This document shows, piece by piece, positions 48,622 to 64,000 of a stretch of 64,000 nucleotides of DNA. The translations under genes were made by a program, and so were the position numbers. The first letter of the stretch is position 1, and each line of letters opens with the position of its first letter. The DNA is from Saccharopolyspora shandongensis (GTDB lineage: Bacteria; Actinomycetota; Actinomycetes; Mycobacteriales; Pseudonocardiaceae): positions 1 through 64,000 of the forward strand of contig NZ_FNOK01000038.1 of the NCBI RefSeq assembly GCF_900106995.1. The letters run 5' to 3'. The notes under the pieces are model-generated. The model was given only the letters and a program-made list of their open reading frames with translations, was not told the origin of the DNA and made no database searches.

Positions 48622-48864
48622 CTAATGCAGTGCCGCCCGGCCGAGATCGGTCAGGGCCGCGGTCACGCGCCGGCCGCTCGCGCCGGGCGGGGCCGCGCGC
48701 AGCAGGCCGGTCTGCACCAGCTCCCGGGCGCTGCCCTGGTCGCAGCACGGCAACCCGTCGACGTACAGGTCGGGTTCGCAGCTGCAGGTGATCTCGGCCC
48801 GGCCACCGGCGACGGCCCGCAGCATGGCCAGCTGGCGGTGGTTGAGCACAGCGATGACGGTCAT
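48622..48864 (-). CDS. Small cysteine-bearing hypothetical protein
   Basis: This 80-residue protein starts 13 bases after the reductase stop. The chain resembles a small winged helix: MTVIAVLNHRQLAMLRAVAG, then GSARELVQTGLLRAAPPGAS and RVTAALTDLGRAAL. Four cysteines (CSC...CC) between residues 27 and 41 could bind a metal ion. It may be a small sensor or regulator inside the operon. No family is recognised. Confidence 0.55.
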   Translation of the reverse strand: MTVIAVLNHRQLAMLRAVAGGRAEITCSCEPDLYVDGLPCCDQGSARELVQTGLLRAAPPGASGRRVTAALTDLGRAALH

Positions 48865-48876
48865 GATCGCACTCGT

Positions 48877-49815
48877 TCACAAGTCCAGCACCAGCTCGGC
48901 CGAACGGCAGCGGGACACGCAGATCATCATCGTTTCCCCGGCATCCCGTTCTGCCTGGCTGAGCACGAAGTCGCGGTGCTCCGGCTCGCCGCCGAGCACC
49001 TTGGTCTCGCAGGTGCCGCACACGCCTTCCTGGCAGGAGTTCGGCACCTGCACCCCGGCGTCGGACAGCGCGTCGAGCACCGAGACGTCCGGGCCGACGA
49101 ACACCCGCGTGCCGGAGGCTTTGCAGGTCACCTCGAAGCCGTCGTCCGAAGTGGACGCTGTCGCCTCCGGGGCCCGGAACCGCTCGACGCGCAGCACCGA
49201 CGGATCGGGCAGCGCCGATTCCACCGCGCTGATCAGCGGTTCGGGGCCGCAGCAGTACACCAGCGCGCCGGGCGGCAGGTCGGCGAGTTCGGCACCGAGG
49301 TCCGGCGGCCCGCCGTGCTCGTCGTCGGCGTGGACGCGGACCCGGTCACCACCGATCTCCCGCAGCTGCGGCAGGAAGGCCATGCTCTCGCGGGACCGTC
49401 CGCAGTAGAGCATCCGCCAGTCGGCGCCGCGGTCGGCGAGTTCGCCGGCCATGGCCCGCATCGGCGTCACGCCGATGCCGCCCGCGATGAGGAGGTGGCG
49501 CTCGGCGGGTTCCAGCGGGAAGTTGTTGCGCGGCCCGTCGACCGTCAGCAGGGTGCCCGCGGTCAACCGCTCGTGCACCCAGCTGCTGCCGCCGCGCGAG
49601 TTCGGCTCGCGCAGCACCGCGACCGTCCAGCTGCGCCGGTCGGCCGGGTCGCCGCACAGCGAGTACTCCCGCGTCATCCCGTTGGCCAACTGCAGTGCGA
49701 GGTGCGCCCCCGGTTCCCATGCCGGGAGGTCGCCCCCGGCCGGATCCCGGAATTCCACCTGCACCACCCCGGATGCCAGCCACGTCGTGCTGTGCACCCG
49801 AACCCCGTGCGCCAT
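48877..49815 (-). CDS. Ferredoxin reductase of the Rieske oxygenase (FMN/NAD/2Fe-2S, phthalate dioxygenase reductase type)
   Basis: This 312-residue protein starts at ATG 49815 after GAGGAG. The flavin-binding domain (WEPGAHLALQLANGMTREYS with LCGDPADRRS) precedes the NAD domain (LLIAGGIGVTPMRAMAGELA, then YCCGPEPLI). The plant-type 2Fe-2S domain lies at the C-terminus, with CQEGVCGTCETKVLGGEPEH and the last ligand in MMICVSRC. It carries electrons from NADH to the oxygenase. Confidence 0.93.
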   Translation of the reverse strand: MAHGVRVHSTTWLASGVVQVEFRDPAGGDLPAWEPGAHLALQLANGMTREYSLCGDPADRRSWTVAVLREPNSRGGSSWVHERLTAGTLLTVDGPRNNFPLEPAERHLLIAGGIGVTPMRAMAGELADRGADWRMLYCGRSRESMAFLPQLREIGGDRVRVHADDEHGGPPDLGAELADLPPGALVYCCGPEPLISAVESALPDPSVLRVERFRAPEATASTSDDGFEVTCKASGTRVFVGPDVSVLDALSDAGVQVPNSCQEGVCGTCETKVLGGEPEHRDFVLSQAERDAGETMMICVSRCRSAELVLDL

Positions 49816-49892
49816 GCTCCTCACCCCGGGCCTTCCTCGACCGACGTCTGTTCTCCAATGCGGCGCGGAGCCGCTCGCGGCGTGGACTCGCT

Positions 49893-50414
49893 TCAGTCGC
49901 GGGTGACGCCGTGCACCGGCGAGGTGGCCGGGTAGGTCGGCAGCTGCGGCTTCTGGGCGCCGATGACGACGCAGAACAGCGCGTCGGTGTCGCCGATGGC
50001 CTTCAGGCTGCGCGGCACCCCGGCAGGCACCCGGATCAGGTCGCGGTAGCCGAGCACGCGGGTCGCGGTCTTGGTGCCGTCCTCGACGTCGTGGACGCTG
50101 ACCTCGAGCTGCCCCTCCAGCACGAAGAACACCTCCTCCACGTCGTGGTGGGTGTGCTCCGGGCCGATCGCGCCCAGCGGCAGGCGCATGTTGGAGAAGG
50201 TGAAGTGCTCCGACGGCAGCGTGCGGCTGTCGCCATCGTGGTTGCCGGTGGCGCCGGAACCGATGTAGCGGATCTGCGCGCGGCGGAACTCGTCGCCGGC
50301 CTTGGCCTGGAACGCGAGGGTGTCCCAGTCCTCGTGGCGGCTCTCCCGCGAGGCGATGCAGGAGTCGATCAGGTCTTCCAGGCCGGTGTGGGTCTTGGCG
50401 TCTGCAGCGGTCAT
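49893..50414 (-). CDS. Cupin-domain protein
   Basis: This 173-residue single-cupin protein starts at ATG 50414 after GGAGG. The metal site is in GPEHTHHDVEEVFFVLEGQL (two histidines, one glutamate near residues 87-97), with the last histidine region replaced by VPAGVPRSLKAIG. It may be a dioxygenase or a sensor of a pathway intermediate. It is the first gene of the leftward operon. Only 20 bases separate it from the divergent, truncated ALDH frame, which leaves no room for a normal divergent promoter region. Confidence 0.85.
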   Translation of the reverse strand: MTAADAKTHTGLEDLIDSCIASRESRHEDWDTLAFQAKAGDEFRRAQIRYIGSGATGNHDGDSRTLPSEHFTFSNMRLPLGAIGPEHTHHDVEEVFFVLEGQLEVSVHDVEDGTKTATRVLGYRDLIRVPAGVPRSLKAIGDTDALFCVVIGAQKPQLPTYPATSPVHGVTRD

Positions 50415-50434
50415 CGGGCGACCTCCAGAATCTC

Positions 50435-51799
50435 TTAGCCGCCACACCGGAGGACGTCGACGAAGCCGCCCGCGCCGGGTCCGCCGCCGCGGCGGACCCG
50501 GCCTGGCGGGACCTGCTCCCGCACGAACGCGCCCGGCTGCTCACCCGGGTCGGCGACCTGATCGAGCAGCACGCCGGCGAACTCGCCCTCCTGCAGACCC
50601 GCAACACCGGCAAGGCGCTGGCCGAGACGCGCGCGCTGGTGGGCAGCGCCGCGGGCACTTTCCGGTTCTACGCCGCCGCTTTGGAGACCACCGAGACCCC
50701 GCTGCCCCCGCAACGCGGCCCCTACCTGACGATGAGCGTGCCGGAGCCGATCGGCGTGGTCGGCGCGATCACGCCGTGGAACTCCCCCATCGCGAGCGAC
50801 GCGCAGAAGGTCGCGCCGGCACTGGCCGCGGGCAACGCCGTGCTGCTCAAGCCCGCCGAAGCCACCCCGCTGGTGTCGCTGGCGCTCGCGCGGCTGGTGG
50901 TCGAGGCCGGGGTGCCTCCGGCGCTGTTCTCGGTGCTGCCCGGCAAGGGGTCGGTGGTCGGCGACGCGATCGTCCGGCATCCGGCGGTGGGCAAGGTCTC
51001 CTTCACCGGCGGCACCGACACCGGCCGCGCCATCGGCCGGCTGGCCGCGGCCAAGTTCATGCCGCTGACCAGCGAACTCGGCGGCAAGTCCCCGACGATC
51101 GTGTTCGACGACGCCGACCTGGACCAGGCCGTGGCCGGGATCCTGTTCGGGATCTTCTCCTCCAGCGGGCAGAGCTGCATCGCCGGATCCCGGATCTTCG
51201 TACCGGAGCGGATCTACGCGGAGTTCGTCGAGCGCCTGGTCGCCGGGGCGCGGCGGCTGCGGGTCGGCCCCGGCACCGACCCGGCCAGCCAGGTCGGGCC
51301 GCTGGCCACCTTCGCGCACCGCGATCGGGTGGCCGCGCTGGTCGACCGCGCCCGCGAGGAAGGCGCCAACGTGCTCTGCGGCGGCGGAATCCCCGACGAT
51401 CCGGAGTTGGCGCGCGGCGCTTACTACCTGCCGACGCTGCTGGACGGGCTGCCCAACGACGCGCGCACGTGCCAGGAGGAGATCTTCGGCCCGGTCGGCG
51501 TCGTGCTGCCCTTCCGCGACGAGGAAGAGCTGATCGCCCGGGCGAACGACACGATCTTCGGCCTGGCCTGCGGGATCTGGACCCGGGACTACCGGCGGGC
51601 CTGGCGGGTGGCCCGGCGCATCGACGCGGGCACCGTGTGGATCAACACCTACAAGCAGTTCAGCATCGCCACGCCGTTCAGCGGGATGAAGGCCAGCGGC
51701 GTGGGCACCGACAAGGGCCGGGACGCGATCCTGCGCTACACCCGGCAGAAGAGCCTCTACTGGGGCCTCGACGAAGCCCCGCTTCCCTGGGCCACCTGA
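50435..51799 (+). pseudogene. Aldehyde dehydrogenase with missing start and N-terminal end
   Basis: The frame reads LAATPEDVDEAARAGSAAAD at its beginning and follows the ALDH family to the end, with catalytic residues intact: ELGGKSPTIVF (glutamate), SSGQSCIAGSRIFVP (cysteine), EEIFGPVGVVLPF. About 35-40 residues normally found before this point are missing. There is no ATG or GTG in frame until GTG 50639, which would remove 68 more residues. Its remaining length is 454 codons. A deletion that joined it to the cupin gene explains both the lost start and the short gap. It might still be made from a non-standard start. Confidence 0.65.
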
Positions 51800-51814
51800 C
51801 CCGCCGCCCCACCG

Positions 51815-51850
51815 GAGGTCGGCAGTTTCAATTGAAACTGCGGAGACCTC
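51815..51850. terminator. Bidirectional palindromic terminator between ALDH and MarR genes
   Basis: GCAGTTTCAATTGAAACTGC (51822-51841) is a perfect 20-base palindrome, extended by GAGGTC/GACCTC arms. It stands between convergent genes. The AT-rich centre is unusual here, and a protein-binding role cannot be excluded. Confidence 0.65.
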
Positions 51851-51895
51851 GGGCTCCATGCGTGCCGCGGTGATCTTCCGGCCCTCGCCGGAAGA

Positions 51896-52429
51896 TCACT
51901 CGCCGGCGCGCCTGGCCACCGCGTGGTCGAGGGAGCCTTCGAGCCTGCTGAGCAGGTCCGCGAGGCGCTCCTGCTCCGTGGCGGACAGGCCGCTGAGCAT
52001 CTCGCGCTCGTTGGCGAAGTGGGCCTCGCTGACCTTGTCGGTGAAGGCGAGGCCCTCCTCGGTCAGCTGCACGTGAACGGTGCGCCGGTCATGGGCGTCG
52101 CGCTCCCGCCGCACCAGGCCGGCGGCTTCGAGCTTGTCGACGCGCTGGGTGATCCCGCCCGTGGTCACCAACGCGGCGTCGGCGAGCTCGCCCGCAGTGC
52201 GCCGGTACGGGCTGCCCGCCCGGCGCAGCGACGCGAGGATGCTGAACCCGGCCATGGTCAGGTCGAAGGACTGGAAGATCCGGTTCAGCTGGTCCTGGTA
52301 GCGGTGGTAGGCGCGGTGCAGGCGGCCGAACACGGCCATGCCGGAGGCGTCGACGTCCGGAACCTCGCGGCGCCACTCCGCCAGCATGAAGTCGACCGCG
52401 TCCGGCCGGGACCGGTTGCGTCGGACCAC
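51896..52429 (-). CDS. MarR-family transcriptional regulator
   Basis: This protein has about 177 residues. The winged helix is clear: GFSILASLRRAGSPYRRTAG, then LVTTGGITQRVDKLEAAGLV and DRRTVHVQLTEEG. The N-terminal part (RPDAVDFMLAEWRREVPDVD) is typical for the group. GTG 52429 gives full length; ATG 52387 would remove 14 residues. Its upstream region is AT-rich and holds a dyad. As the nearest regulator to the aromatic operon and ALDH remnant, it may control them or itself. Confidence 0.88.
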   Translation of the reverse strand: MVRRNRSRPDAVDFMLAEWRREVPDVDASGMAVFGRLHRAYHRYQDQLNRIFQSFDLTMAGFSILASLRRAGSPYRRTAGELADAALVTTGGITQRVDKLEAAGLVRRERDAHDRRTVHVQLTEEGLAFTDKVSEAHFANEREMLSGLSATEQERLADLLSRLEGSLDHAVARRAGE

Positions 52430-52473
52430 CTTCGCCCACCACCCGAAACTCGACGAACAAGAAGTACTAAGAA

Positions 52474-52484
52474 TAGCAGAGCTA
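52474..52484. promoter_or_regulatory. Dyad in the AT-rich upstream region of the MarR gene
   Basis: TAGC-AGA-GCTA lies 45 bases upstream of the MarR start in the only clearly AT-rich stretch of this area (52455-52495), which also has repeated CTAAG at 52467 and 52482. It could be an autoregulatory site. Confidence 0.4.
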
Positions 52485-52613
52485 AGGAATTTCCCGACGA
52501 GCGCCGTGCCAGGACAGCAGCCCTGGGAACCGTGCTCCTCGGCGCGAACTCGATGCTCACAGGTGGTGCGACGCGTGCCGGACCCGCACCGTCCTCGACG
52601 CGCGGCCGCGCGA

Positions 52614-53501
52614 TCAGTTCGCCGCCAGGACCCGTTCAAGTGTTGCGTAGCCCGCCGGTTCCCAGGTCGGTTTACCCCCGGGCAGACCGAGCCTGCCACG
52701 CTGTCCGATCCAGATCAGGCCCAGAGCGCGCGCGACGGCCCAGCCTCGGGCCCGGGCGACGGTGGCTTCGTCGGCGTGCTCGTAAGCGTCGAAGAACCGA
52801 CTTGCCGCGCCGGCGGGCAGCAGGATCCAAGCGGCCGAAAGATCAGTCGTGGGATCACCTGCGCACATCTCGCCGAAGTCGATCACCCCGGCGAGCATCC
52901 CGTCCCGGACGACCACGTTGGCCGGATGCAAGTCACCGTGCAGCCAGAGCGGCGCGCCCTGCCAGGCGGGCGCCGCGACGGCGTTCTCCCACACTTCCCG
53001 CGCAGCGTCAGCGTCCGCGTAGTCGGCGATGACCTCGAGCCAGCCGTCGACCTCCTGCCGCAAACCGGCCAGCGGGATGCCGCGCGTCGGGTTGGCAGGG
53101 GCGTCAGCCGGCGCCTGGTGATGCAGCGCCCCGAGGAACCCAGCGAGGACCTCGGCCGCCTCGATGCGCCTGATCGGCGTGTGATCGGCCGGCTCACCCT
53201 CGACCCAGCGCGCGATCGTCCAGGTGTGCTCGAACAGGCCCGAAGGCTTGCCGATGCGAACCGGCACGGGCGTTGGCAGCGGCAGGCGCTCGGCCAACAC
53301 CGGCAGCCACGTCTGCTCCCCCTGCAGCAGAGCCGGCGCTCGCTCGGTGCGCGGCAAGCGCACGGCCAGCTCCTCCCCGAGGCGCCACTGCTGGTTGTCC
53401 CCGCCTCCGTTGACGTCTCGGAGCTCGAGGTCCGCGAGATCCGGATGCTGATCCCGCAACAGCGCCCGCACCAGGTTTCGCTCGAACTTCAACCCGTCCA
53501 T
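52614..53501 (-). CDS. Aminoglycoside phosphotransferase-fold kinase, relative of the gene at 36584
   Basis: This 295-residue protein starts at ATG 53501 after GGAGG. The catalytic loop is LWLHGDLHPANVVV (near residue 182) and the metal-binding loop VIDFGEMCAGDPTTDLSAAW (near 200). Segments such as LLRDQHPDLADLELRDVNGG, RLPLPTPVPVRIGKPSG and AAWILLPAGAASRFF repeat those of the first APH gene almost word for word. The two are paralogues or were acquired from the same family. The substrate is unknown. Confidence 0.9.
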   Translation of the reverse strand: MDGLKFERNLVRALLRDQHPDLADLELRDVNGGGDNQQWRLGEELAVRLPRTERAPALLQGEQTWLPVLAERLPLPTPVPVRIGKPSGLFEHTWTIARWVEGEPADHTPIRRIEAAEVLAGFLGALHHQAPADAPANPTRGIPLAGLRQEVDGWLEVIADYADADAAREVWENAVAAPAWQGAPLWLHGDLHPANVVVRDGMLAGVIDFGEMCAGDPTTDLSAAWILLPAGAASRFFDAYEHADEATVARARGWAVARALGLIWIGQRGRLGLPGGKPTWEPAGYATLERVLAAN

Positions 53502-54008
53502 CGAGGAGCCTCCGATCACCGGCATGCGCAGGCACGCTAGCACCGGTCGAACCAGCAGACGGAAGCCGCACGTGTCCTGGCGCGGCCGACGATTCCGCTC
53601 CTTCGAATCCTCCCGGTACGCAGATACCCCGCGCTCATTGCCCGACGAGCAGTTCGCCGACCAGGCTGAAACCGTTGACTTGCATGGCTCCACGGTGCCG
53701 ACTCCGCCGGATGCCGATCACAACACCGCCCGTCCACCACGGATCACCTTTAGTCCTTTGCGGACATTCACACGAAATGAGCCCCTAGGGCTGGACGTCC
53801 ATGAGGTCGAGGTCGCCCCACAGCTTCTGGGCGTCTCCGGACGCGCGCGGAGTCGTCGTCCGCCATCTCCGCGAGGACGGCCCACACCGCCGCGACCATG
53901 GCGGTGAGAGACGGGCCCGCCTGGACGCCCTCGATCGGTGTGGCGATCAGGTGGTGCGCGTCGTCGGCCAACGGCGAGGAACGCAGGTGCAGGCGGGCGT
54001 GAGCGAGG
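53502..54008. other. Gene-poor stretch with decayed reading frames
   Basis: No intact gene is seen over about 500 bases. On the minus strand, 53990-53788 reads ADDAHHLIATPIEGVQAGPS, then LTAMVAAVWAVLAEMADDD, and after a frame change DAQKLWGDLDLMDVQP before a stop. That looks like the C-terminal end of some lost gene, but I cannot name it. Confidence 0.4.
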
Positions 54009-54359
54009 CTTCGTACCGCAAGATCTTCGACGTTCGGCACGCGGGCCTCGACGCACTGGAGAAGGCGCACCGAGCAGGGGTGAACATCGCCTACGGAACG
54101 GACCTCCTGGGCCCGATGCACGCCCACCAACTCGACGAGTTCGCCCTCCGCGCGGAGGTCCAGCCCAACGCAGACCTGATCCGGTCGGCGACGACGACGG
54201 CGGCGCGCCTGCTGGGCATGACCGGCCAGATCGGCACGCTCGCGAAGGGAGTCCACGTGGACCTCCTCGTGGTCGAGGAACCCACTCGAAGACCTAGCGG
54301 CCCTGACCAAACCCACCAAGAACCTCAAGCACGTCATCAAAGCAGCCAGAACGATCTGA
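54009..54359 (+). pseudogene. C-terminal remnant of an amidohydrolase (imidazolonepropionase/prolidase-like)
   Basis: The frame reads SEASYRKIFDVRHAGLDALE, then AGVNIAYGTDLLGPMHAHQL with the metal-site aspartate, and IRSATTTAARLLGMTGQIGT and KGVHVDLLVVE, all typical of the last 120 residues of metal-dependent amidohydrolases. After VVEE near 54281 a frameshift leads to NPLEDLAALTKPTKNLKHVI in another frame before the stop at 54357-54359. The N-terminal 300 residues are absent. Confidence 0.75.
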
Positions 54360-54377
54360 CCCGACCGCCCCGAGCAA

Positions 54378-54417
54378 ACCGGCGCTGTCGGAGGTCAAGG
54401 ATTCGGACAGCGCCGGT
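54378..54417. terminator. Hairpin terminator
   Basis: ACCGGCGCTGTC (54378-54389) pairs perfectly with GACAGCGCCGGT (54406-54417). It lies 19 bases after the amidohydrolase remnant. The following 190 bases to the NTPase gene show nothing else. Confidence 0.65.
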
Positions 54418-54609
54418 AGGCGCTCAGCAAAGTCCAAGCGGAGCATGCCGCACACCGGGATGATCTGCGACACCCAGGACAACCGACCGCCCAAGGCAGA
54501 GGCCGATCAACGCAGAAGAACCGCCGGGAGAGCAGGCCCCGAAACTGCGACTCCTCGAAAGCCCGAGGCGGGGCTCCTTTGACATCCTTCCCGGAAGAAG
54601 CTTGACACT

Positions 54610-56634
54610 TCAGTTGATCGCGCCCTCTCGCCCGCGGTTCACACGCGATAGCCGGCGTTGACACTTTCGCGTCGTCTTCAAAAGACTTCGGATCTGCGAA
54701 CGCTTCGTCGGGTGGTAGAGGCCGAGCACGGAAACGGCACGACGGCGACGCCGCCACCGCAGGTCAGGAATGGCGAGTTCGATCAGGCGGACCAGTTCCG
54801 CCGCCTTGTCCTGGTCCCACTGGGACTGGATTGCCAGCGCAGACAGGCGCTCAATGGCTATCCCCCCGAAGTCAGGATCCTCGAGCACAAGCCGCATGAG
54901 CACACGCACGTGGTAGTCGAATGTCTCGTATACCTCGGCAGCGTCGAACCACTCGACGCGGTCCAGCCCGGTCAACCACAACCCCAGACTCAGAGCTACG
55001 GCGCGCAACCCCTTGCGGCGATACTTCGGCTCCGACCACGACAGGACGCGATCCATCACGAGCTCCTGGATGTCGGGATTCTGCAGCATGCCCAACACAC
55101 CCGCGACCACCGCGTTCTGCGGCGCTTGGTAAGTAGACTGCCCGATCTTCGCGAGCCGGGTCAGTGCTCCGCGTATGTCCCGCTGCCCGAAAGATGATGT
55201 GTACACAACTGCCGCAGTCCACTGCTGGTACGCACCGCCGTACTCGGTCCAGTCCTCCAATGTCTCTTCTACGAGCGGTTGCAGGTTGTGGTCGTCCGCC
55301 AAAGTAGTGAGGGTTGCCGCTGCCAGGAGCCGATCAGCGTATCTTCTCTTCGCCGCAAGCTCATTCACGAAGCGCAGCGGCTCGTGCGCAGGAACCTTCG
55401 CGGTAATCGTGCACAGCGCACGGCGTGCGGCGTCGCCTGGGACGCAGACCAACCACTTGTGCAGAATCGGGTGGATGGAAGGGTACTCGCGCCACACATG
55501 GCAGAGCAGCGCAACGGCCCAGCCTTCACGTTTGAAGCGCACTGTTTCTTCTCGCAGGCCGGTGTGCCGAGGATGTTGACGCTCTACCGTCTCGGTCTGG
55601 ATGTCGTCCAGCAACTGCTGCTTCGGCTTCTCGAATACCCGACGAGGGCGCAACTTCTTGTCCTCGGGAAGCTGAGCCTTGCGGATCCCCTCGTCCAGCA
55701 GGGTGGCGTGCGCCACGACCCTGTCGTAGGGCTCGTTCTCCAACACCGCGACCGCCAAGGACATCGCGTACTCCCGCACTGACGAGACCTGCCAAGCTTC
55801 GAACCAGCGAGCTACCGCATTCCCGATATCCTCGCGCAAGCCTGCCAACGCCTCGTCAACCGACGCCTCACCGTGAAAGGCACGCAGCGCCCACTCAGCG
55901 GCTCGTACTGCCTTCTCCGGAGGATCCCCTTTCTCCAACGCATTGCGAAGGTCTGATTTGAGCACCACCGCCGGCCCTTCAGCCCCATATCGGCAACGCC
56001 ACCTGAGAGCGCAAAGAGCCACCTCGACGAGGTCCGGAGCCGCTAGCTCCACCGTCTTGCTCGATGCCGTGGAGCAGGACTGCGAGCGATGATCAAGCAC
56101 GATAACCAGCCGGCAACCCTCGTCTTTGAACAAGCTTGCACATTGCTCGAATTCCCAGTCCAAGAAAGGCTTGCCGCCATCGTCGCCAACCGACCAGATG
56201 TAGCCAAGACCCGCTTCCAGATCACTCGCACGCACCGACTGGAGTTTCCGCTGCCGGTTCATCTCAACGATGGCGCTCGCACCGCAATCGTCGAGCAGCC
56301 TCCGAGCGGTGAACGACCTTCCGGTGCCGGGCCCGCACAGCACCACCACGTTGTGCTCCCACAGAATGCGTTTGGCGGTGGCGAAACCCCCGGGCTCGAC
56401 AAACTGCTTCCGCGCCTGTTCGACCTCGTCATCAGTCGCACGGCGGACGAGCAGCTCCGGCTCCTTGGGAGAGCTGAAGCTGTTCATCGTGACATCGCCA
56501 TTGAGGATCCCCGTTTGGACGCCGTTCTGGTCGCGATATGCCGTGTTCTGCGTGGACCCCTGCTTGAAATTCGGGACGTAGCGGACGCCGCCGAGTTCTT
56601 CCTCAGTCGTTTCGTTGTTGGATTCCTCGCTCAT
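54610..56634 (-). CDS. STAND-like P-loop NTPase with N-terminal RHIM-like amyloid motif
   Basis: This 674-residue protein starts at ATG 56634, overlapping the cyclase-like gene as ATGA. Residues 1-29 are acidic and disordered; residues 30-50 hold a short motif (NTAY...NGVQTGILNGDVTM) that matches the C-terminus of the neighbour. The NTPase follows: Walker A GPGTGRSFTARRLL (near 108), Walker B RLVIVLDHRSQ (near 190). From about 320 to 640 the chain is helical, with HEAT-like repeats that could sense a ligand. NTPases of this plan act as NLR-like switches in bacterial conflict systems. GC content is visibly lower than in the flanking genes. The function is inferred. Confidence 0.7.
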   Translation of the reverse strand: MSEESNNETTEEELGGVRYVPNFKQGSTQNTAYRDQNGVQTGILNGDVTMNSFSSPKEPELLVRRATDDEVEQARKQFVEPGGFATAKRILWEHNVVVLCGPGTGRSFTARRLLDDCGASAIVEMNRQRKLQSVRASDLEAGLGYIWSVGDDGGKPFLDWEFEQCASLFKDEGCRLVIVLDHRSQSCSTASSKTVELAAPDLVEVALCALRWRCRYGAEGPAVVLKSDLRNALEKGDPPEKAVRAAEWALRAFHGEASVDEALAGLREDIGNAVARWFEAWQVSSVREYAMSLAVAVLENEPYDRVVAHATLLDEGIRKAQLPEDKKLRPRRVFEKPKQQLLDDIQTETVERQHPRHTGLREETVRFKREGWAVALLCHVWREYPSIHPILHKWLVCVPGDAARRALCTITAKVPAHEPLRFVNELAAKRRYADRLLAAATLTTLADDHNLQPLVEETLEDWTEYGGAYQQWTAAVVYTSSFGQRDIRGALTRLAKIGQSTYQAPQNAVVAGVLGMLQNPDIQELVMDRVLSWSEPKYRRKGLRAVALSLGLWLTGLDRVEWFDAAEVYETFDYHVRVLMRLVLEDPDFGGIAIERLSALAIQSQWDQDKAAELVRLIELAIPDLRWRRRRRAVSVLGLYHPTKRSQIRSLLKTTRKCQRRLSRVNRGREGAIN

Positions 56635-57365
56635 CGCGGCACTGCTCCGAACGTCACCCCACCGTTGACGGTATGGGCTTGGACCCCCTGATTGGTCCCG
56701 TACGACGTGTTGGACACCTGGACACTGGGCCGCTGCGCACCCTCTTCGCTGCGCGGTGAGACGAACGAGTCCAAGCTTCGCGGATCGAAACCCGGGACCC
56801 TGACCCAAGCCGTGTCGCTGTGCTCCTTGTTGCGGAGGGGTAGTGCCGCGAAGTCACTGCGTCGAACCAGATCGGTGTGGTCACCACCGAAGGCAGCACC
56901 CAGCACCTTTTCAGAAACGATGAGCGCGGAGCTCGCAACGTCGCCAGGCCTCTCCTCTCGACATCGGCCGAACAGAGCCTTGAACTCCTTCGCCTCCAGC
57001 ATCCTGCTGAGTGCGATCTTGGCGGCGTAGAAGCCAGGCCTTCCGCCCACTGGTCCGATTTCGATCGCGATGCGGAGACAGATCTCGGGCTTCTGCCATC
57101 GATTCCGGACTGCGGCGAGTGCATCGAGATGCTGGGAGCAGTCCAGCAAACGTCCAAGATATCTGCTGGGGAGCGCGAGCAGTGCCCCGTCTCCGGTTGA
57201 CTCCCAGTCCACCACCTCGTGACGGGGGATGCTGCTTGTTGCCAGCGCCTCGCACAGCAACTCGTCGACGCACTCGGCTACGGCGTTCAGATGATATCCA
57301 GGATTGCTCGCCGAGCCGACGACGTCGACGCCGAGCAGCGCGCGATGCTCCGGAATCAGGTTCAC
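56631..57365 (-). CDS. Class III nucleotidyl cyclase-like protein with C-terminal RHIM-like motif
   Basis: This protein has 244 residues. GTG 57365 is chosen because GGAGG stands 5 bases upstream; the longer frame to 57392 has no ribosome site. The fold follows class III cyclases: LLGVDVVGSASNPGYHLNAV (first metal aspartate near residue 15), WESTGDGALLALPSRY (second, near 62), CLRIAIEIGPVGGRPGF, and SALIVSEKVLGAAFGG. The usual N-x-x-x-R pair is not obvious (FYAAKIALSRMLEAKE), so activity is uncertain. Residues 219-239 (NTSY...GVQAHTVNGGVTF) match the N-terminal motif of the NTPase. Confidence 0.7.
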   Translation of the reverse strand: MNLIPEHRALLGVDVVGSASNPGYHLNAVAECVDELLCEALATSSIPRHEVVDWESTGDGALLALPSRYLGRLLDCSQHLDALAAVRNRWQKPEICLRIAIEIGPVGGRPGFYAAKIALSRMLEAKEFKALFGRCREERPGDVASSALIVSEKVLGAAFGGDHTDLVRRSDFAALPLRNKEHSDTAWVRVPGFDPRSLDSFVSPRSEEGAQRPSVQVSNTSYGTNQGVQAHTVNGGVTFGAVPR

Positions 57366-57447
57366 GGGTACCTCCATACGGGCGCTTGCCATTGGGCAAT
57401 CAGTGTGAAGCGGGGCTGACGACCGTTCTCCCGGTTTTCAGGGATAT

Positions 57448-58113
57448 CTACTGATCCGTCTGGGACTCGGTGAGGACAGCAAGCGATTCCATCGCTTGCG
57501 GATCGAGCACCTGGTACCAAAGCCGCCCCGTCCGGAGCAGCCCGGATGCGCGGAAACGCGCAAGGACGGCATCCACCGTCTTATCCGAGGCACATACGGC
57601 CTGGGCTATGTCCAGCTGGCTCACACCGCGCATCAGCAGCCCTGACTCGGTCGGCCGACCGAAGGCACGCGCCCAGCTGAGAAGCGTCGTCGCGACTCTC
57701 GTGCGGACATCACGGGTTTGGGAGAGTTGCCGGGCATCGGCATTTCGTTGCCGCTGCCACCAGGATTCGTCGAGCAGCGCCCTGACATCGTCGTCCCGCT
57801 GTTGCATCAGCCGGAACACGTCACCGGGAACGCGCACGACGATCCCTGATGTCAATGCGACGATATGCGCACTCCGCGGACGGTGGCCAACCACTCCGAT
57901 CTCCCCGAGCAGGTCACCTGCCCCAAAGAGGCCGACCACGGGCTCGGCGCCGTCCCGGTCCGGGAGAACGGCCTTGACCAGGCCCTCCTCGACCAGCAGC
58001 ACCTCGACGCTGGCCGACCCTGCGACGATCAACCGGTCACCACGGCGGAAGGAAGCCGACCGGCCAGCCGAACGCAGCGCTAGCCGCCCTCTCTCTCGAC
58101 TATCATCCTGCAC
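57448..58113 (-). CDS. Crp/Fnr-family regulator with cyclic-nucleotide-binding domain
   Basis: This 221-residue protein starts at GTG 58113. Residues 15-125 form the cNMP-binding fold, with the phosphate-binding cassette FGAGDLLGEIGVVGHRPRSA (glycine-glutamate and arginine-serine-alanine in place, near 67-86). The long helix and the winged HTH follow (GVSQLDIAQAVCASDKTVDA, then FRASGLLRTGRLWY). It lies 82 bases upstream of the cyclase-like gene on the same strand, so a cyclic nucleotide made by that protein is its natural ligand. A TTGCC-ATTG-GGCAA dyad at 57386-57399 sits between the two genes. Confidence 0.85.
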   Translation of the reverse strand: MQDDSRERGRLALRSAGRSASFRRGDRLIVAGSASVEVLLVEEGLVKAVLPDRDGAEPVVGLFGAGDLLGEIGVVGHRPRSAHIVALTSGIVVRVPGDVFRLMQQRDDDVRALLDESWWQRQRNADARQLSQTRDVRTRVATTLLSWARAFGRPTESGLLMRGVSQLDIAQAVCASDKTVDAVLARFRASGLLRTGRLWYQVLDPQAMESLAVLTESQTDQ

Positions 58114-58316
58114 GGTCGATCATCGTCCCCCCAGCCAAGGCAACTCAGGCTTGATCCACGCTCGTTCACTCGTTGAGAGCAGAGGCACTTGCGCGCGATC
58201 TTCGGTGTGGCTGGTGTCCGTCGCCGGGGACGACGGCGGCTGCAGGGCGGCCGCCGACGAGGTCATGCCGGTCGTCTCGCCCGGCATCCGCGCAGTGAAC
58301 GCCAGTAAGTCGTCCG
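58114..58316. promoter_or_regulatory. Divergent upstream region of the Crp-like gene
   Basis: The region must hold the promoter of the Crp/cyclase/NTPase unit. I see no clear TGTGA-N6-TCACA site. Short open frames are not convincing. Confidence 0.35.
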
Positions 58317-58445
58317 ATGCCCCAGCCCTACTGCCGCCACAGCGTGGTCCTGCAAGTAAGCCAGGCCATCGAAACCGCGGTGGCCCACGGCGGTGCGGAC
58401 CACGCGGTGCACCGGCTGACGCAGTCACAGGAGAGATCGTCATGA
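58317..58445 (+). CDS. Possible 42-residue ORF coupled to the YCII gene
   Basis: ATG 58317 opens a frame (MPQPYCRHSVVLQVSQAIET and so on) whose TGA overlaps the ATG of the next gene. There is no clear ribosome site, and the product matches nothing I recognise. The overlap is the only support. Confidence 0.25.
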   Translation: MPQPYCRHSVVLQVSQAIETAVAHGGADHAVHRLTQSQERSS

Positions 58446-58774
58446 AGTTCGCCCTGCTCTACCAGTACGACCCCACCAAGACTGGCCCGACCGACGGTGA
58501 GATCGACGACTGGCTGGCGCTCGACAAGCAGATCCGCGACGCCGGCATCTTCGTGTACGAGGCCGGCTTTCATCCCGCCGAGGCCGCCCGCATGGTGACC
58601 GTCCGGGACGACGCCGCGGCCACGACCGACGGCATCGAGCACCGCACGGGCGAATACCTGGCCGGCCTGTACGTCATCGAGGTTGCCGACCTCGACGCGG
58701 CGACGAAGTGGGCCGAGCAGATCCCCACCGGCCGCTACGGCAGCGTCGAGGTGCGCCAGGTCGTCGAGTACTGA
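58442..58774 (+). CDS. YCII/DGPF-domain protein
   Basis: This 110-residue ferredoxin-like-fold protein starts at ATG 58442 after CAGGAGAG. MKFALLYQYDPTKTGPTDGE, GIFVYEAGFHPAEAARMVTV, GEYLAGLYVIEVADLDAATK and IPTGRYGSVEVRQVVE match the YCII-related (DGPF) family. These genes usually precede an ECF sigma factor, but none follows here; a strong terminator ends the unit. The biochemical role is not established. Confidence 0.9.
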   Translation: MKFALLYQYDPTKTGPTDGEIDDWLALDKQIRDAGIFVYEAGFHPAEAARMVTVRDDAAATTDGIEHRTGEYLAGLYVIEVADLDAATKWAEQIPTGRYGSVEVRQVVEY

Positions 58775-58789
58775 GGCCGGGAAAGCGCG

Positions 58790-58828
58790 GAGGGGTGGCA
58801 GGTCCGGCGGACCTGCCACCCCTCTTTT
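58790..58828. terminator. Strong intrinsic terminator between YCII and ABC-F genes
   Basis: A perfect 16-base-pair stem (58790-58805 with 58809-58824) around a 3-base loop is followed by TTTT on the + strand. It serves the YCII gene and, in the other direction, the end of the ABC-F gene. Confidence 0.88.
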
Positions 58829-58867
58829 CGTCCACAAGGGACAGTTCGGCTACGGGCACAGCCCGAT

Positions 58868-60505
58868 TCAGGCCGTGGCCGGTTCCCGGATCGTGCTCAG
58901 CTCCTCGTCGAGCAGGACCCATCGGGTGATGCCGATCGATTCGAGGAACGGCATGTCGTGGCTGGCCACGATCAACGCCCCTTCGTACGACCTCAGGGCC
59001 GCGACCAGCTGACGGGCGCTGGCCATGTCGAGGTTGTTCGTCGGCTCGTCCAGCATGAGCAGCTGCGGCGCCGGCTCGGCGAGCATGAGCGCGGCGAGGG
59101 CCGCGCGGAAGCGCTCGCCTCCGGACAGCGTCGCCGCCTGCTGGTCGGCCCGCGCCCCCTTGAAGAGGAAGCGGGCCAGGCGGGCCCGGATCTCGTTGTT
59201 GGTCGAACCCGGCGCGAACCGCGCCACGTTCTCGGCGACGCTCCTCTCCTCCGCCAGGACGTCGAGCCGCTGGGGCAGGAAGCGCAGCGGTACGTGCACA
59301 ATGGCCTCCCCCTCCAGCGGTTCCAGTTCCCCGGCGATCGTGCGCAGCAACGTCATCTTGCCCGAGCCGTTCCGGCCCAGCAACGCGACCCGTTCGGGCC
59401 CGCGCAGGTCGAACTCGCCCCGCACCTGCGCCCCGTAACGCAGGCGCAGGTCGCGCAGGGTCAGGACGGTCCGGCCGAGCGGCACCGCGGTGTGCGGCAG
59501 ATCGACCCGGATCTCGTCGTCGTCGCGCACCGCCTCCGCCGCCTCGCCGAGCCGCTCCTTCGCCTCGGCGAGCTTCTCCTCGTGCATGATGCGGTGCTTG
59601 CCTGCGGAGACCTGGGCCTGCCGCTTGCGCTCGCTCATCACCACCTTGGGTTCGCGCTTGGTGTCCCACATCTTCTGGCCGTACCGCTTCCGGCGGGCCA
59701 GCTTGATGTGCGCATCGGCGAGTTCACGCTTCTGCCTCCGCAGATCGGTCTCGGCGACGCGGACCATCCGCTGCGCCGCCTCCTGCTCGACGGCGAGCGC
59801 CTCCTCGTAGGCGGCGAGGTTGCCGCCGTACCAGCCGATCTCGCCGTCCCGGAGGTCTGCGATCTGGTCCACCCGCTGCAGCAGTTCGCGGTCGTGGCTG
59901 ACCACGACCAGCACGCCCGACCAGTTCTCGACCGCCTCGTACAGCCGTCGCCTGGCGTGCAGGTCCAGGTTGTTGGTCGGCTCGTCGAGCAGCAGGACGT
60001 CCGGCCGCGTCAGCAGCAGCGCGGCCAGCCGGAGCAGCACCGACTCGCCGCCGGAGACCTCGCCGATGGTGCGGTCGAGACCGATGTGGCCCAGACCGAG
60101 AGCGGCGAGCATCGCCGTGGCGCGCTCCTCGACATCCCAGTCGTCGCCGATCGTGGTGAAGTGCTCCTCGCGCACGTCACCGGTGGCGATGGCGTTCAGC
60201 GCGGCGCGGATCCCGGCTATGCCCAGGGCCTCGTCGACGCGCATCCTGGTGTCCAGGGCGACGTTCTGGGGCAGGTAGCCGACATCGCCGGACACGCGGA
60301 CCGCGCCGCCGGTCGGCGCGAGCTCGCCCGCCACCAGCTTCAGCAGAGTGGACTTGCCCGACCCGTTGAGCCCGATGAGGCCGGTGCGGCCGGGCCCGAA
60401 CGCCGCCTGCAGTCCGTCGAAGACCCGGCTGCCGTCCGGCCAGGCGTAGCCGAGCTCGGTGCAGGTGATGGCGGCGGTGCCGGGCAGGTGCGTGGAAGTA
60501 GACAT
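58868..60505 (-). CDS. ABC-F ATPase with unusual second Walker A motif
   Basis: This 545-residue cytosolic protein has two ATPase domains and no membrane segment, like the ABC-F factors that act on the ribosome and often protect it from antibiotics. Domain 1 has GLNGSGKST (near residue 45) and VSGGESVLLRLA; domain 2 has LSGGERFRAALAAL and LLMLDEPTNNLD. Its Walker A reads GRNGSGKMT: methionine replaces the magnesium-binding serine. The linker between domains (RRKRYGQKMWDTKREPKVVM) is long and basic, as in resistance types. ATG 60505 has GAGG upstream; the same frame stays open without a stop to GTG 60598. Confidence 0.88.
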   Translation of the reverse strand: MSTSTHLPGTAAITCTELGYAWPDGSRVFDGLQAAFGPGRTGLIGLNGSGKSTLLKLVAGELAPTGGAVRVSGDVGYLPQNVALDTRMRVDEALGIAGIRAALNAIATGDVREEHFTTIGDDWDVEERATAMLAALGLGHIGLDRTIGEVSGGESVLLRLAALLLTRPDVLLLDEPTNNLDLHARRRLYEAVENWSGVLVVVSHDRELLQRVDQIADLRDGEIGWYGGNLAAYEEALAVEQEAAQRMVRVAETDLRRQKRELADAHIKLARRKRYGQKMWDTKREPKVVMSERKRQAQVSAGKHRIMHEEKLAEAKERLGEAAEAVRDDDEIRVDLPHTAVPLGRTVLTLRDLRLRYGAQVRGEFDLRGPERVALLGRNGSGKMTLLRTIAGELEPLEGEAIVHVPLRFLPQRLDVLAEERSVAENVARFAPGSTNNEIRARLARFLFKGARADQQAATLSGGERFRAALAALMLAEPAPQLLMLDEPTNNLDMASARQLVAALRSYEGALIVASHDMPFLESIGITRWVLLDEELSTIREPATA

Positions 60506-60967
60506 GAGGGCCTCGCAGTTGCTCGAAGTAGCGATGTGGGTGCAACGCGTTCGAGACGCCGCGAGCGACAGCAGGCGAAGCGGGAAACGCCGACTCACAG
60601 CCCGTTGTCTGGGCGGAGGCGGAGGAACGGCTCACATCGCAGAGGTCGCGACCGGGTCAGCGCTTCGGAACGAGCGTGACGCGCGGCGTCTCAGGACCTC
60701 AGATGAGCAACGTCCCTCTCCAATCGACGGCAGCAGAAGCCCGACCACTCTACGGTCCGCTTTGGAAGAAAGTCAACGGAATAAACGAGTCCTTCCGTCG
60801 TCAACGGTAGAAGATCGTCGACGGATCACCCGAGTACCAGGTGGCGTCGACCTCGATCCGGCTCAGTGGCGCCTGACACCGAGGGCGATTTCGCGCGAAA
60901 TCGCCCTCGGCGTCAGGCACCGGGTGGCTTCGGGATGAGCCGGGGTGGAGCCATTTTGGAACGACTC
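60506..60967. other. Upstream region of the ABC-F gene and LysR 3' flank
   Basis: The first 93 bases upstream (60598-60506) encode MSRRFPLRLLSLAASRTRCT and so on in frame with the ABC-F gene, which may be a leader or an extension. The rest shows no gene. A long palindrome lies at 60871-60918. Confidence 0.5.
60871..60918. repeat. Extended copy of the CG-rich palindromic repeat
   Basis: A 48-base inverted repeat with a single mismatched pair surrounds the core TTTCGCGCGAAA (60889-60900), the same core as at 7920-7943. Its position 50 bases beyond the stop codon of the leftward LysR gene fits a terminator. Confidence 0.85.
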
Positions 60968-61954
60968 CTAGTCGGCTGGGTTCATCGCGCGGTGTACGTC
61001 GTCGTAGGCGGCGTCGGCCGCGTCGATCAGGCTCGCTCCTTCGGCTTGGAGGTCTTCGATGGCGGCGTACCAGGTGTCGAGGGTGGCCTTGCACTGGCTG
61101 ACCACCTCCTCCGCCGCCGGGCTCAGCGCGCCGCGCCGGTGGACCACACCGAAGGGCACCGACACCAGCGGGTCGGTTTCGATCACGACCGCGCCGAGCC
61201 GCCGCGCCTGAACTGCCATCCGCAGCGGGAGGAAGGCGTGCACACCTCCGCCGAGGACGAGCGTGAGCTGCGCGTGGCGATTGGGCATGCTCGCGATCAG
61301 CCGCGGCTCCACCCCCACATCCCGCAGCGCCGTCGCGACCCGGTCGTTCTCGCGCTGCGCGAGCGCGCAGATCGTCAGCGGCAGGTCACCGAGGGCGTCG
61401 AGCGGCAGCCGCCCGGTCGGCGGCGCCGGCGAACCCGGCGGCATCACCAGCAGCAACCGCTGCACCCCGAGCTGGACGAAGTCCAGGCTTTCGGTGGGGA
61501 CGGGCCGGGTGGTGAACCCGAGCTCGTACCGGCCGGCGACGACCTCGCCGCACAGCGCCCGGACGCCGGCGGCCTCGGCGATGTCCAGCCGCACGTCCGG
61601 ATGCCGGGCCCGGAACGACGTGATCCAGGAGGCGACCGCGTCGCTGGACATCTCCGGCATCGTGCCGATGGAGACCGAGCCCGCCTTGAGATCCCGGGCA
61701 CGGCTCATGGCGTCCCGGGCGGCCACGACGCCGTCGAGGATCGCCCGCGCCTTCGGGACCAGCAGCGTTCCCGCCGGGGTCAGGACGAGGCTGCGCCGCG
61801 CCACGCGCTGGAACAGCTCCACGCCGAGCTCGCGTTCGAGCGCCTGGATCGCCTGGGAGAGCGCCGGCTGGGAGACGTAGAGGCGCTGCGCGGCCCGGTT
61901 CAGCCCCTCGTGCTCGACCACGGCCAGGAAGTACTCGATCTGGCGCAGCTCCAT
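60968..61954 (-). CDS. LysR-family transcriptional regulator
   Basis: This 328-residue protein starts at ATG 61954 after AGGAGG. The HTH (LRQIEYFLAVVEHEGLNRAA, QRLYVSQPALSQAIQALERE) leads a normal substrate-binding domain (SVSIGTMPEMSSDAVASWIT; LPLTICALAQRENDRVATAL). It lies 48 bases after the acyl-CoA dehydrogenase gene on the same strand, so it is probably co-transcribed with it rather than divergent as usual. Confidence 0.93.
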   Translation of the reverse strand: MELRQIEYFLAVVEHEGLNRAAQRLYVSQPALSQAIQALERELGVELFQRVARRSLVLTPAGTLLVPKARAILDGVVAARDAMSRARDLKAGSVSIGTMPEMSSDAVASWITSFRARHPDVRLDIAEAAGVRALCGEVVAGRYELGFTTRPVPTESLDFVQLGVQRLLLVMPPGSPAPPTGRLPLDALGDLPLTICALAQRENDRVATALRDVGVEPRLIASMPNRHAQLTLVLGGGVHAFLPLRMAVQARRLGAVVIETDPLVSVPFGVVHRRGALSPAAEEVVSQCKATLDTWYAAIEDLQAEGASLIDAADAAYDDVHRAMNPAD

Positions 61955-62002
61955 CGTCCCTCCTCCGATCGTCCGGGGCCGACGCGCTCCCGCGGACGAG
62001 CC

Positions 62003-63181
62003 CTAACGTACGCGGTAGCTGTCCGGCAGCACCCCGTCCGCCGCGACCGACCGGACCATCGCGCGGCCCAAGTTCCGCTCGTGGATCGCGGACGCGCCCT
62101 CGTAGATGCGCAAGGTGCGGACGTCGCGCCACATCCGGGGCACCGGGTGCGGCCCGACGATGCCCTCCCCGCCGAGCAGCTGCACGCACCGGTCGGCGAC
62201 CCTGCCGACCATCTCCGAGCAGTACAGCTTCGCCGCCGAAATCCGCTGTCGGGGAACGGTTCCGGCGTCGAACGCGCGGGCAGCGTCCAGGGCCAGGGCC
62301 CGTCCGGCCTCCAGCTCGGAGTAGCACCGGCCCAGTTCGGCCCGCACGACGCCGAGATCGGCGAGCGGGGCGCCGAACTGGTGGCGCTCGCTGACGTGGC
62401 GGGTGGTCTCCTCCAGCATCCTGGTCGCCTGGCCGACGCAGGTCGCGGCGACGTGGAGCCGGGCGTGGTTGATCCCGCGCATCGCGGCCGCGAGCCCGGT
62501 GCCGGGCACGCCGCCGAGCAGCCGGTTCTCGGCGACGACCACCGACTTCAGGTCGATCTCGGCGACGGGGCCCTCGGCGTGGCCGTTCATGAGGTCCGGG
62601 ATCCGGGTCGACACGCCGGGCGCGGTCCGGTCCACGATGAACGCGGACACCTCGGCGCCGTCGGTGCGCGCGAAGACGAGCAGCGCATCCGCCCAGTGCG
62701 CGTTGGTGATGTAGCGCTTCGTCCCGTCCAGAACCCACCCGTCGCCGGTGCGCCGGGCGGTGGTCTGGACGTTGGTGGCGTCGGAGCCCGCCTCCGGCTC
62801 GGTCAGCGCGAACGACGTGACCCGCCGGCCGGCCGCCATTTCCGGCAGCATCTCGCGGCGCTGCTCTTCCGTGCCGTGGTCGAGGATCGCCTGCGAGCAG
62901 AGCCCGATCACGGTCGAGAAGCGGGACCGGTACACGCACGACGCCCTGGTGAACTCGAACGTCAGCAGCACCTGCTGCTCCATGGTCCAGCCGAGGCCGC
63001 CGTAGGCGGGCGGGATCGAGATGCCGAACAGCCCGAGCTCGGCCATGCGCCGCACGATCGCATCCGGAACCTGCCCCGCCGCGACCATTTCGGCCTCGGC
63101 GGGGATCAGCTCGTCGTCGGTGAACGCGGCGATCGTGCGCAGGTACGCGTCGAAGTCGGGCTTGCCGGCGGCGCGGGTCAT
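62003..63181 (-). CDS. Acyl-CoA dehydrogenase
   Basis: This 392-residue flavoenzyme starts at ATG 63181, overlapping the CoA-transferase stop. FAD and substrate motifs are in place: VTSFALTEPEAGSDATNVQT (near residue 120), KRYITNAHWADALLVFARTD, GQATRMLEETTRHVSERHQF then GAPLADLGVVR, and the C-terminal catalytic glutamate region LRIYEGASAIHERNLGRAM. It oxidises an acyl-CoA to the 2,3-enoyl-CoA, probably the one made by the adjacent CoA-transferase. The exact acyl chain is not known. Confidence 0.93.
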   Translation of the reverse strand: MTRAAGKPDFDAYLRTIAAFTDDELIPAEAEMVAAGQVPDAIVRRMAELGLFGISIPPAYGGLGWTMEQQVLLTFEFTRASCVYRSRFSTVIGLCSQAILDHGTEEQRREMLPEMAAGRRVTSFALTEPEAGSDATNVQTTARRTGDGWVLDGTKRYITNAHWADALLVFARTDGAEVSAFIVDRTAPGVSTRIPDLMNGHAEGPVAEIDLKSVVVAENRLLGGVPGTGLAAAMRGINHARLHVAATCVGQATRMLEETTRHVSERHQFGAPLADLGVVRAELGRCYSELEAGRALALDAARAFDAGTVPRQRISAAKLYCSEMVGRVADRCVQLLGGEGIVGPHPVPRMWRDVRTLRIYEGASAIHERNLGRAMVRSVAADGVLPDSYRVR

Positions 63182-64000
63182 CGTGTCTCCATCCCTGGTC
63201 GCGGTTGCTCCGGCAAGGCGACGACGCCGTCGTCGGCCAGCCGGTCGATCTCGTCCTCGCTGCGCCCGAGTTCGCGCAGCACGTCGCGGGTGTGGGCGCC
63301 CAGCCGGGGCGCGGCCGACGTCCGGCCGCGGGCCGCCCCGTCGACCCGGAAGGGCGCGGCCGGGGCGTCGATCCCGAGCTCGTCCAGCTCGACGACCAGG
63401 CCCGATGCGGCGAGGTCGGCGTCCTTCACGAGCTCGTCGAACGACCGCACCGAGCCGCACACGATCCCCCGCGAAGCCAACAGCGCGATGGCCTCGGCGC
63501 GGGTGAGGTGGCCGAGCGCGGAACTCAGAACTTCCTTCAGCGCCAACCGATTCGCGACCCTCGATCCGTTGTCCGCGAAGCGCGGGTCGGCCGCGAGCTC
63601 GGGCCTGCCGATCGCCGAGCACAGCGCGGCCCACTTGGTCGCGGTGTAGGCGGAGACCACGACGGCGCCGTCGACGGTCTGCACGAGATCCGCTGCGGGC
63701 GCCACCGCGGGCTGGCCGTTGCCCGTCCGCCGGGGCGCCTCGCCGGTGAGGCGGTAGCTCGTCCACTGCGTCGCCTGGGCCGAAACCACCGCTTCCATCA
63801 GCGAGGTCTCGACGATCGCGCCGCGCCCGGTTCGGGCGCGCCGGACCAGCGCGGCGAGCACCCCGGCCGCCAAGGCGTTCGCGGCCAGCACGTCGGCGAC
63901 GGTGAAGCCGACGCGCTGCGGTTCGCCGTCGGCGTCGCCGGTGGTGTGCATGATCCCGAACTCGGCCTGGGCCGCGATGTCCAGTCCCGCGCGTCCCGCC
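63178..64000 (-). CDS. Family III (CaiB/BaiF) CoA-transferase, cut by the window edge
   Basis: The C-terminal 274 residues are visible. GLDIAAQAEFGIMHTTGDAD, TVADVLAANALAAGVLAALV, GAIVETSLMEAVVSAQ and LGAHTRDVLRELGRSEDEID are typical of CaiB-type enzymes, which move CoA from one acid to another. The catalytic aspartate lies further upstream, outside the window. The gene overlaps the acyl-CoA dehydrogenase start (ATGA), so the two form one catabolic unit with LysR. Confidence 0.9.
   Translation of the reverse strand, partial: AGRAGLDIAAQAEFGIMHTTGDADGEPQRVGFTVADVLAANALAAGVLAALVRRARTGRGAIVETSLMEAVVSAQATQWTSYRLTGEAPRRTGNGQPAVAPAADLVQTVDGAVVVSAYTATKWAALCSAIGRPELAADPRFADNGSRVANRLALKEVLSSALGHLTRAEAIALLASRGIVCGSVRSFDELVKDADLAASGLVVELDELGIDAPAAPFRVDGAARGRTSAAPRLGAHTRDVLRELGRSEDEIDRLADDGVVALPEQPRPGMETR

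Follow-up and report, generated by a model that had tools for sequence, protein, structure and literature searches.

What joins a Crp-type regulator, a cyclase-like protein and a sensor-like NTPase in a single operon? The question is raised by a three-gene unit in a stretch of Saccharopolyspora shandongensis DNA of 64,000 nucleotides (contig NZ_FNOK01000038.1, positions 1 to 64,000; hereafter the window), which encodes a Crp/Fnr regulator, a class III nucleotidyl-cyclase-like protein, and a STAND-type NTPase with helical repeats (Table 1). An original prediction, made from the sequence alone, held that matching amyloid-type motifs link the last two. Re-reading the sequence returned the same three genes in the same order and at the same coordinates, with the ATGA at 56634–56631 shared by the cyclase stop and the STAND start. 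We consider it probable that the unit works as a second-messenger system gated by a sensor, in which co-assembly of the motifs would pair cyclases and the product would act through Crp and, elsewhere, through the membrane effector PycTM.

The cyclase C-terminus and the STAND N-terminus carry the matched segments NTSYGTNQGVQAHTVNGGVT and NTAYRDQNGVQTGILNGDVT, which align without gaps and are identical at 10 of 20 positions, as had been predicted. When the two whole proteins were compared by BLASTP, this motif pair came out first (E = 0.003, 10/25 identical), and the window tail scored against the window head with z = 5.8 relative to shuffled tails. An alignment of 15 close cyclases revealed that the tail is variable save for N228, G232, Q238, and G244, which are at least 90% conserved, and G38 and G46 are invariant in the heads of 11 STAND proteins; these conserved positions are small islands within otherwise free linkers. 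AlphaFold2 gave very low confidence to residues 214–253 of the cyclase and to residues 1–17 and 24–58 of the STAND protein, as expected for segments that are disordered until assembly.

The cyclase belongs to a widespread family. In the order, the window cyclase by itself had matches at E up to 1e-3 in 27 of 298 genomes (a few probably spurious); in the class, a family profile (A1) had matches at E up to 1e-8 in 90 of 394 genomes. We combined the window, 14 named loci, 29 loci from the order search, and 99 from the class search, the latter drawn mostly from the best-scoring among the matches listed; these 143 sources gave 142 with a profile match and 135 distinct loci. The original prediction had hinged on conserved pairing of the three genes in other genomes, and the survey bears it out: a STAND-like gene lies directly downstream of the cyclase in 82 of the 135 loci, starting no more than 60 bases from the stop of the cyclase gene in 81 and sharing a 4-base overlap with it in 48, and a Crp gene lies upstream in 64 of the 82. 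Umezawaea, Saccharothrix, Lentzea, Actinokineospora, and Pseudonocardia are represented among the 14 named close relatives, together with a strain filed under Nocardia. Ten of the 14 have a STAND gene with the identical 4-base overlap, and nine of these ten STAND proteins have a variant of the head motif NxxxGxMxG[VI]Q[AT]GxVxGxxxF, with an altered core in L032 and L034; the STAND head of Pseudonocardia acaciae (L043) has no recognizable variant. At seven other loci (L005–L009, L011, and L014), the Crp and cyclase genes are adjacent, a tail motif is not evident, and we could find no STAND gene. This two-gene form is perhaps an ancestral or housekeeping version.

Across the family, tails match the heads of their own partners far better than those of others. 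We scored the last 90 residues of each cyclase (tail) against the first 180 of each STAND protein (head) at all 82 loci, doubtful ones included. The cognate scores sum to 5633, compared with 2946 ± 93 (standard deviation) for permuted partners and a maximum of 3335 in 10,000 permutations; the own partner ranks first at 36 loci and within the top 5% at 57. Among 21 representatives with less than 40% core identity, 16 rank first (sum 1342 versus 755 ± 48, maximum of 20,000 permutations 978). Nine genomes hold two or three STAND-linked systems, and within them each of the 20 tails reaches its best score against the STAND protein of its own system. In the window genome, for example, the second system (L046) scores 84 with its own partner and 27 in the cross. 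A single generic motif for the whole family is excluded, since the mean permuted sum is about half of the cognate sum. The arrangement that defines bacterial amyloid signaling sequences (BASS), a motif at the effector C-terminus and another at the N-terminus of the adjacent NLR protein, is present in the window pair, and cognate matching is found at the level of the family.

Part of this motif collection resembles a peptide with demonstrated amyloid formation. In the excerpts of PMC8086366, a RHIM-like BASS3 peptide from Frankia bound the dye Congo red, and its Fourier-transform infrared (FTIR) spectra were those of aggregates. We scored the printed BASS3, sigma, and archaeal peptides against all 164 heads and tails. 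The window STAND motif scored 42 with the BASS3 peptide (ORT49035.1_103_123; z 7.4, rank 2 of 164), and the top five heads all belong to the window subfamily (L044, 44; window, 42; L039, 42; L038, 41; L036, 39). A RHIM-like tetrad occurs on both sides in seven of the 82 pairs, all of the window subfamily and including the window itself. In 12 pairs only one side has it, and in 63 neither does, so by this pattern most motif types of the family belong to other kinds. L046 instead carries a sigma-like stretch, GSGDQFN, to which the printed sigma peptide matches best (score 58, z 5.4), and its tail weakly resembles the fungal NACHT_sigma family (PF17106, E = 0.011, below the cut-off). Nothing convincing matched the printed archaeal peptide among the 164 heads and tails (best score 33).

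No Pfam, PADLOC, or NCBIfam model matched the window cyclase-like protein at E up to 10. Searched against the Protein Data Bank, profile A1 retrieved class III cyclases, among them 3mr7 (E = 1.1e-08, the best match) and Ma1120 (8.5e-07). Foldseek with the predicted fold ranked Ma1120 first (E 2.8e-07, template-modeling (TM) score 0.73 by target), and an Anabaena uridylate cyclase stood at rank 14 in the list. The core of the AlphaFold2 model is mostly above 80 in predicted local distance difference test (pLDDT) score. In class III cyclases of the adenylyl type a Lys recognizes the base, and an Asn and an Arg serve as transition-state residues; the family has the class III fold and both metal-binding Asp, and it departs from the adenylyl type in the Lys and the Asn. 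From its sequence, the protein is expected to be an active enzyme that lacks the adenylyl-cyclase lysine. It likelier starts at GTG 57365 than at ATG 57392, which would give 244 amino acids: GGAGG lies 5 bases upstream (57375–57371), and this GTG coincides with the onset of conservation in the alignment of close relatives.

That a Crp/Fnr gene for a protein binding cyclic nucleotide monophosphate (cNMP) precedes the pair, as had been predicted, is confirmed by Pfam, which finds both domains that define this family, cNMP_binding (PF00027, 2.7e-15) and HTH_Crp_2 (PF13545, 1.6e-08). The PADLOC PycTIR model also matches the protein (1.6e-06), covering the cNMP-binding part only. We take the GE and RSA of GEIGVVGHRPRSA to be marks of a phosphate-binding cassette, as in E. 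coli CRP, and a simple pattern of this kind, GE...R[STC]A, occurs in 46 of the 64 upstream Crp proteins.

A second candidate output emerges from the neighborhoods of the family. PycTM-like genes, detected with an iterated profile, accompany eight of the 82 STAND-linked loci and none of the 53 others; some matches are weak, and the flanks are short, so eight may be a lower bound. One gene behind the L043 STAND reached only E 0.02, below the cut-off. In 52 genomes picked for holding family members, 25 contain PycTM, with 33 copies in all, and a listed family cyclase is found no more than 5 kb from 16 of the 33 and no more than 10 kb from 19, for which uniform placement would predict 0.12. We viewed three of nine plasmid matches, one of them an unannotated record; the other two, from Streptomyces plasmids, have a "Pycsar system effector family protein" (PF18967, 2.8e-07 and 9.1e-21) adjoining a Crp gene and a cyclase homologue, and one of these continues with a short STAND-like open reading frame (ORF) and a transposase. 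In the window genome, the single PycTM match adjoins L046, away from the window unit. L046 is itself a second Crp-cyclase-STAND unit (contig C127, around 175185–177231) with a different, sigma-like motif pair. The messenger of the window unit could act in trans on this PycTM.

The same genome also links a STAND protein of the same kind to another effector. At L150 (contig C26, around 7746), a TIR protein (TIR_2, 1.5e-08) is followed by a STAND protein that matches the subfamily STAND profile (E = 9.0e-9) and nSTAND3 (4.5e-08, 33.4 bits). The two genes overlap, and their products carry matched, nearly identical segments, FHDTRDSQIHTGTGDLHVS and FHETQDSQIHTGSGDLNVN. We count this pairing through another matched motif as support for motif coupling in the window. 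The TIR tail has additional motif-like stretches, one with LIQAG.

The window STAND protein matches Pfam nSTAND3 at E = 0.0018 (18.4 bits, below the 27.2 cut-off), and eight of the 11 subfamily STAND proteins match this model at E up to 10. Its AlphaFold2 model has an alpha/beta NTPase-like part followed by helices. Foldseek lists AAA+, NLRC4, and HEAT/ARM chains, with query TM-scores of at most 0.24 among the 50 rows listed; because these whole-length scores are low, the result serves as supporting evidence for the STAND call. A sequence search of the STAND profile against the Protein Data Bank gave two matches (E 0.43 and 1.4), which are not meaningful. The usual Walker A Lys is replaced by Arg throughout the window subfamily, and across the 82 STAND loci the residue is Arg in 49 and Lys in 14, with 19 loci unplaced. 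At a guess, this Arg hints at odd nucleotide handling, maybe binding with inefficient hydrolysis, which would fit a one-way trigger.

Table 1. Positions of the genes and predicted features of the unit in the window
Feature	Coordinates	Strand	Remarks
Crp/Fnr regulator gene	57448..58113	minus	221 amino acids; cNMP-binding transcription regulator; first of three genes
Phosphate-binding-cassette-like stretch of Crp, GEIGVVGHRPRSA, residues 70–82	57868..57906	minus	Assigned from sequence and position
Class III nucleotidyl-cyclase-like gene	56631..57392	minus	253 amino acids counted from ATG 57392
Asp23, predicted first metal ligand	57324..57326	minus	D in 135/135 family members
Gly67-Asp68-Gly69, with Asp68 as predicted second metal ligand	57186..57194	minus	Asp68: D in 135/135
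Arg130, predicted catalytic Arg	57003..57005	minus	R in 132/135
C-terminal amyloid-type motif of cyclase (putative), NTSYGTNQGVQAHTVNGGVT, residues 228–247	56652..56711	minus	BLASTP match to STAND motif
STAND-type NTPase gene with helical repeats	54610..56634	minus	674 amino acids
N-terminal amyloid-type motif of STAND (putative), NTAYRDQNGVQTGILNGDVT, residues 30–49	56488..56547	minus	Matches cyclase motif and BASS3 peptide
P-loop GPGTGRS of STAND, residues 101–107, Arg replacing usual Lys	56314..56334	minus	R106 in 11/11 subfamily members

Amyloid assembly, switching of the cyclase, and Crp as the output are what we infer by analogy with known systems, as are the sensing and the defense role. 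In this scheme, the helical repeats of the STAND protein would sense an invader or damage, and the protein would oligomerize. The clustered N-terminal motifs would then nucleate an amyloid-like beta assembly, which the motif of the cyclase tail would join by templating, and the cyclase domains gathered there would form active dimers. Gathering could switch the cyclase on because the class III active site needs two subunits. In the excerpts of PMC11224242, a Pycsar cyclase pairs head to tail, so that the interface of the dimer holds both active sites, and oligomerization as activation is left open. The cyclic nucleotide would bind the co-encoded Crp and change transcription, perhaps of its own operon; at sister loci, it would also act on PycTM. 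A more sweeping version would make the family a large group of actinobacterial NLR-gated cyclic-nucleotide immune systems, with amyloid polymerization as the on-switch and the polymer supplying the pairing of cyclase subunits. The product, possibly not cAMP, would drive a Crp switch and PycTM, and dozens of insulated motif types, on cyclase and TIR effectors, would act as barcodes that separate paralogous systems. This version strikes us as plausible, and we put it forward tentatively, stopping short of endorsing it.

Several observations weigh against the sensor-gated scheme. The window cyclase motif alone is unlike the BASS3 peptide (rank 128 of 164). Likeness to BASS3 is therefore supported for the STAND motif; the cyclase motif can be called BASS3-like only through its likeness to its partner. 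The margin of the window tail within its own genome is small (50 with its own head, 43 with that of L046), 25 of the 82 cognate partners rank below the top 5%, and 12 pairs lie within about one standard deviation of their own shuffles, with practically no signal (L021, L024, L043, L047, L048, L052, L060, L063, L109, L116, L124, and L143). Within the window subfamily, other heads outscore the cognate one (which ranks 4 of 11 for the window tail and 10 of 11 for that of L042). Pair-specific co-evolution was tested there and was not seen: the motifs are interchangeable by score, and therefore the motif type, not the individual sequence, carries the pairing. Four of the 14 named relatives (L033, L037, L040, and L041) retain the tail motif and have no adjoining STAND gene. 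A search of these genomes for the subfamily STAND returned none for L033, weak ones for L037 and L040, and one strong match in the L041 genome, whose contig and position identify it as the STAND partner of L034. On the output side, 18 of the 82 STAND loci have no visible upstream Crp gene (two of them have less than 300 bases of upstream sequence), and a comparison of the window with ten relatives revealed no shared Crp-type palindrome upstream; six-base palindromes and TGTGA-type sites are only scattered, and none is common to the loci. The window from 48001 to 64000 contains no PycTM-like gene, and PADLOC, its PycC model included, matched none of 19 family cyclases tested. The base-recognition column has no Lys in any of the 135 cyclases (Q 54, E 27, R 16, A 13, others 25). 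Only 28 of them have the transition-state Asn, in place of which the window copy has Ile.

These last points would suit a cyclase-like protein that is catalytically weak or dead and acts as a nucleotide-binding adaptor, with Crp as a bystander regulator of the operon, as would the fact that no library model calls the protein a cyclase. We judge this quite improbable: both metal-binding Asp (135/135) and the Arg (132/135) would hardly persist in a dead enzyme, and Crp and PycTM genes cluster with the family cyclase. Somewhat easier to credit, and still unlikely, is that the motifs are a homotypic adaptor of non-amyloid type, disordered segments that fold into a small finite beta assembly with one cyclase dimer per STAND oligomer. 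The matching and insulation of the pairs demand specific pairing alone, tail and head are probably disordered given their low model confidence, and by simple pattern most motif types are not RHIM-like, whereas the likeness of the STAND motif to the Congo red- and FTIR-positive BASS3 peptide (PMC8086366, as excerpted) and the faint NACHT_sigma match of the L046 tail favor an amyloid-type assembly.

The strongest competitor, although we would not expect it to prevail, keeps the same circuit and assigns it to developmental or self-recognition signaling rather than to anti-phage defense. The family is common in the class, to which many filamentous bacteria with developmental cycles belong, and a Crp output is transcriptional; set against this are the clustering with PycTM, the plasmid copies near transposases, the low guanine-plus-cytosine (GC) content of the window copy, and the pairing of a STAND protein of the same kind with TIR. 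Chance likeness between two Gly/Asn-rich low-complexity segments of adjacent genes would be hard to dismiss from the window pair by itself, with its E of only 0.003; the permutation tests over the 82 loci and the 21 diverse representatives exclude it at the family level and leave it with a negligible probability.

The surroundings agree with the description originally given. The GC content of the operon is 0.630, compared with 0.713 in the remainder of the window, and a position beside remnants is a fair description because an amidohydrolase fragment (53801–54460; PF01979, 4.6e-10, profile positions 220–320 of 345) adjoins the operon. This fragment is a C-terminal portion that lacks the N-terminal part. 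The low GC content, together with relatives on plasmids near PycTM and transposases, gives the label of mobile defense indirect support. Elsewhere in the family, an ORF of Saccharothrix algeriensis (L149), with an NTPase region shortened around the P-loop, has a motif that matches the orphan cyclase tail of L037; it stands apart from that cyclase, by more than 500 kb if its contig (C1) is the named contig.

If the cyclase is motif-coupled, amyloid signaling would gain an easily measured small-molecule readout, the coupling would explain how the cyclase is kept off until the sensor fires, and the fields of NLR amyloids and Pycsar would meet in one operon. With so many matched motif types, the family is a natural data set on the determinants of pairing specificity, and the unit points to a little-explored bacterial route for switching on an alarm signal. 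Among the papers listed from the literature searched, which omits main primary papers and most preprints, none describes a cyclase partnered with an amyloid signaling motif; the sole one of them with both "Pycsar" and "amyloid" is a preprint whose subject is the horizontal transfer of an immune protein of bacteria. For the BASS motifs of Dyrka et al. (2020), as relayed in excerpts of PMC7889193 and PMC8086366, the effectors that PMC7889193 names are BELL and, more rarely, CHAT and TIR, and it gives actinobacteria as main hosts; the excerpts of PMC7889193 report TIR and CHAT as partners of BASS motifs and do not contain the word cyclase. The original prediction had called a cyclase unusual as an amyloid-coupled partner.

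Compared with the bacterial NLR amyloid signalosomes of PMC7889193, as excerpted, the unit is alike in its adjacent or overlapping genes and in the pairwise match between effector C-terminal and NLR N-terminal motifs. It differs in that the effector, instead of BELL, CHAT, or TIR, has a nucleotidyl cyclase fold and comes with Crp. With Pycsar, in which the cyclase PycC is joined by PycTM or PycTIR, the family shares a class III cyclase with the conserved Asp pair, and PycTM lies near many members; unlike Pycsar, it has no PADLOC PycC match and includes a STAND protein with paired motifs, and the window copy has Crp and no adjacent PycTM. The STAND/VMAP conflict systems of Kaur et al. (2020, 2021) likewise include cNMP cyclase effectors and CRP-like genes, and in the available parts of PMC7159879 and PMC8195603 the link is a direct fusion or runs through EAD or death-like domains, unlike the matched motifs here; the main text of PMC7159879 contains neither "amyloid" nor "RHIM", and in PMC8195603 "amyloid" appears only in a reference. 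Judged by gene content and motifs, what appears to be new is the architecture of an NLR amyloid signalosome with a new class of effector and, in sister loci, a Pycsar-like output.

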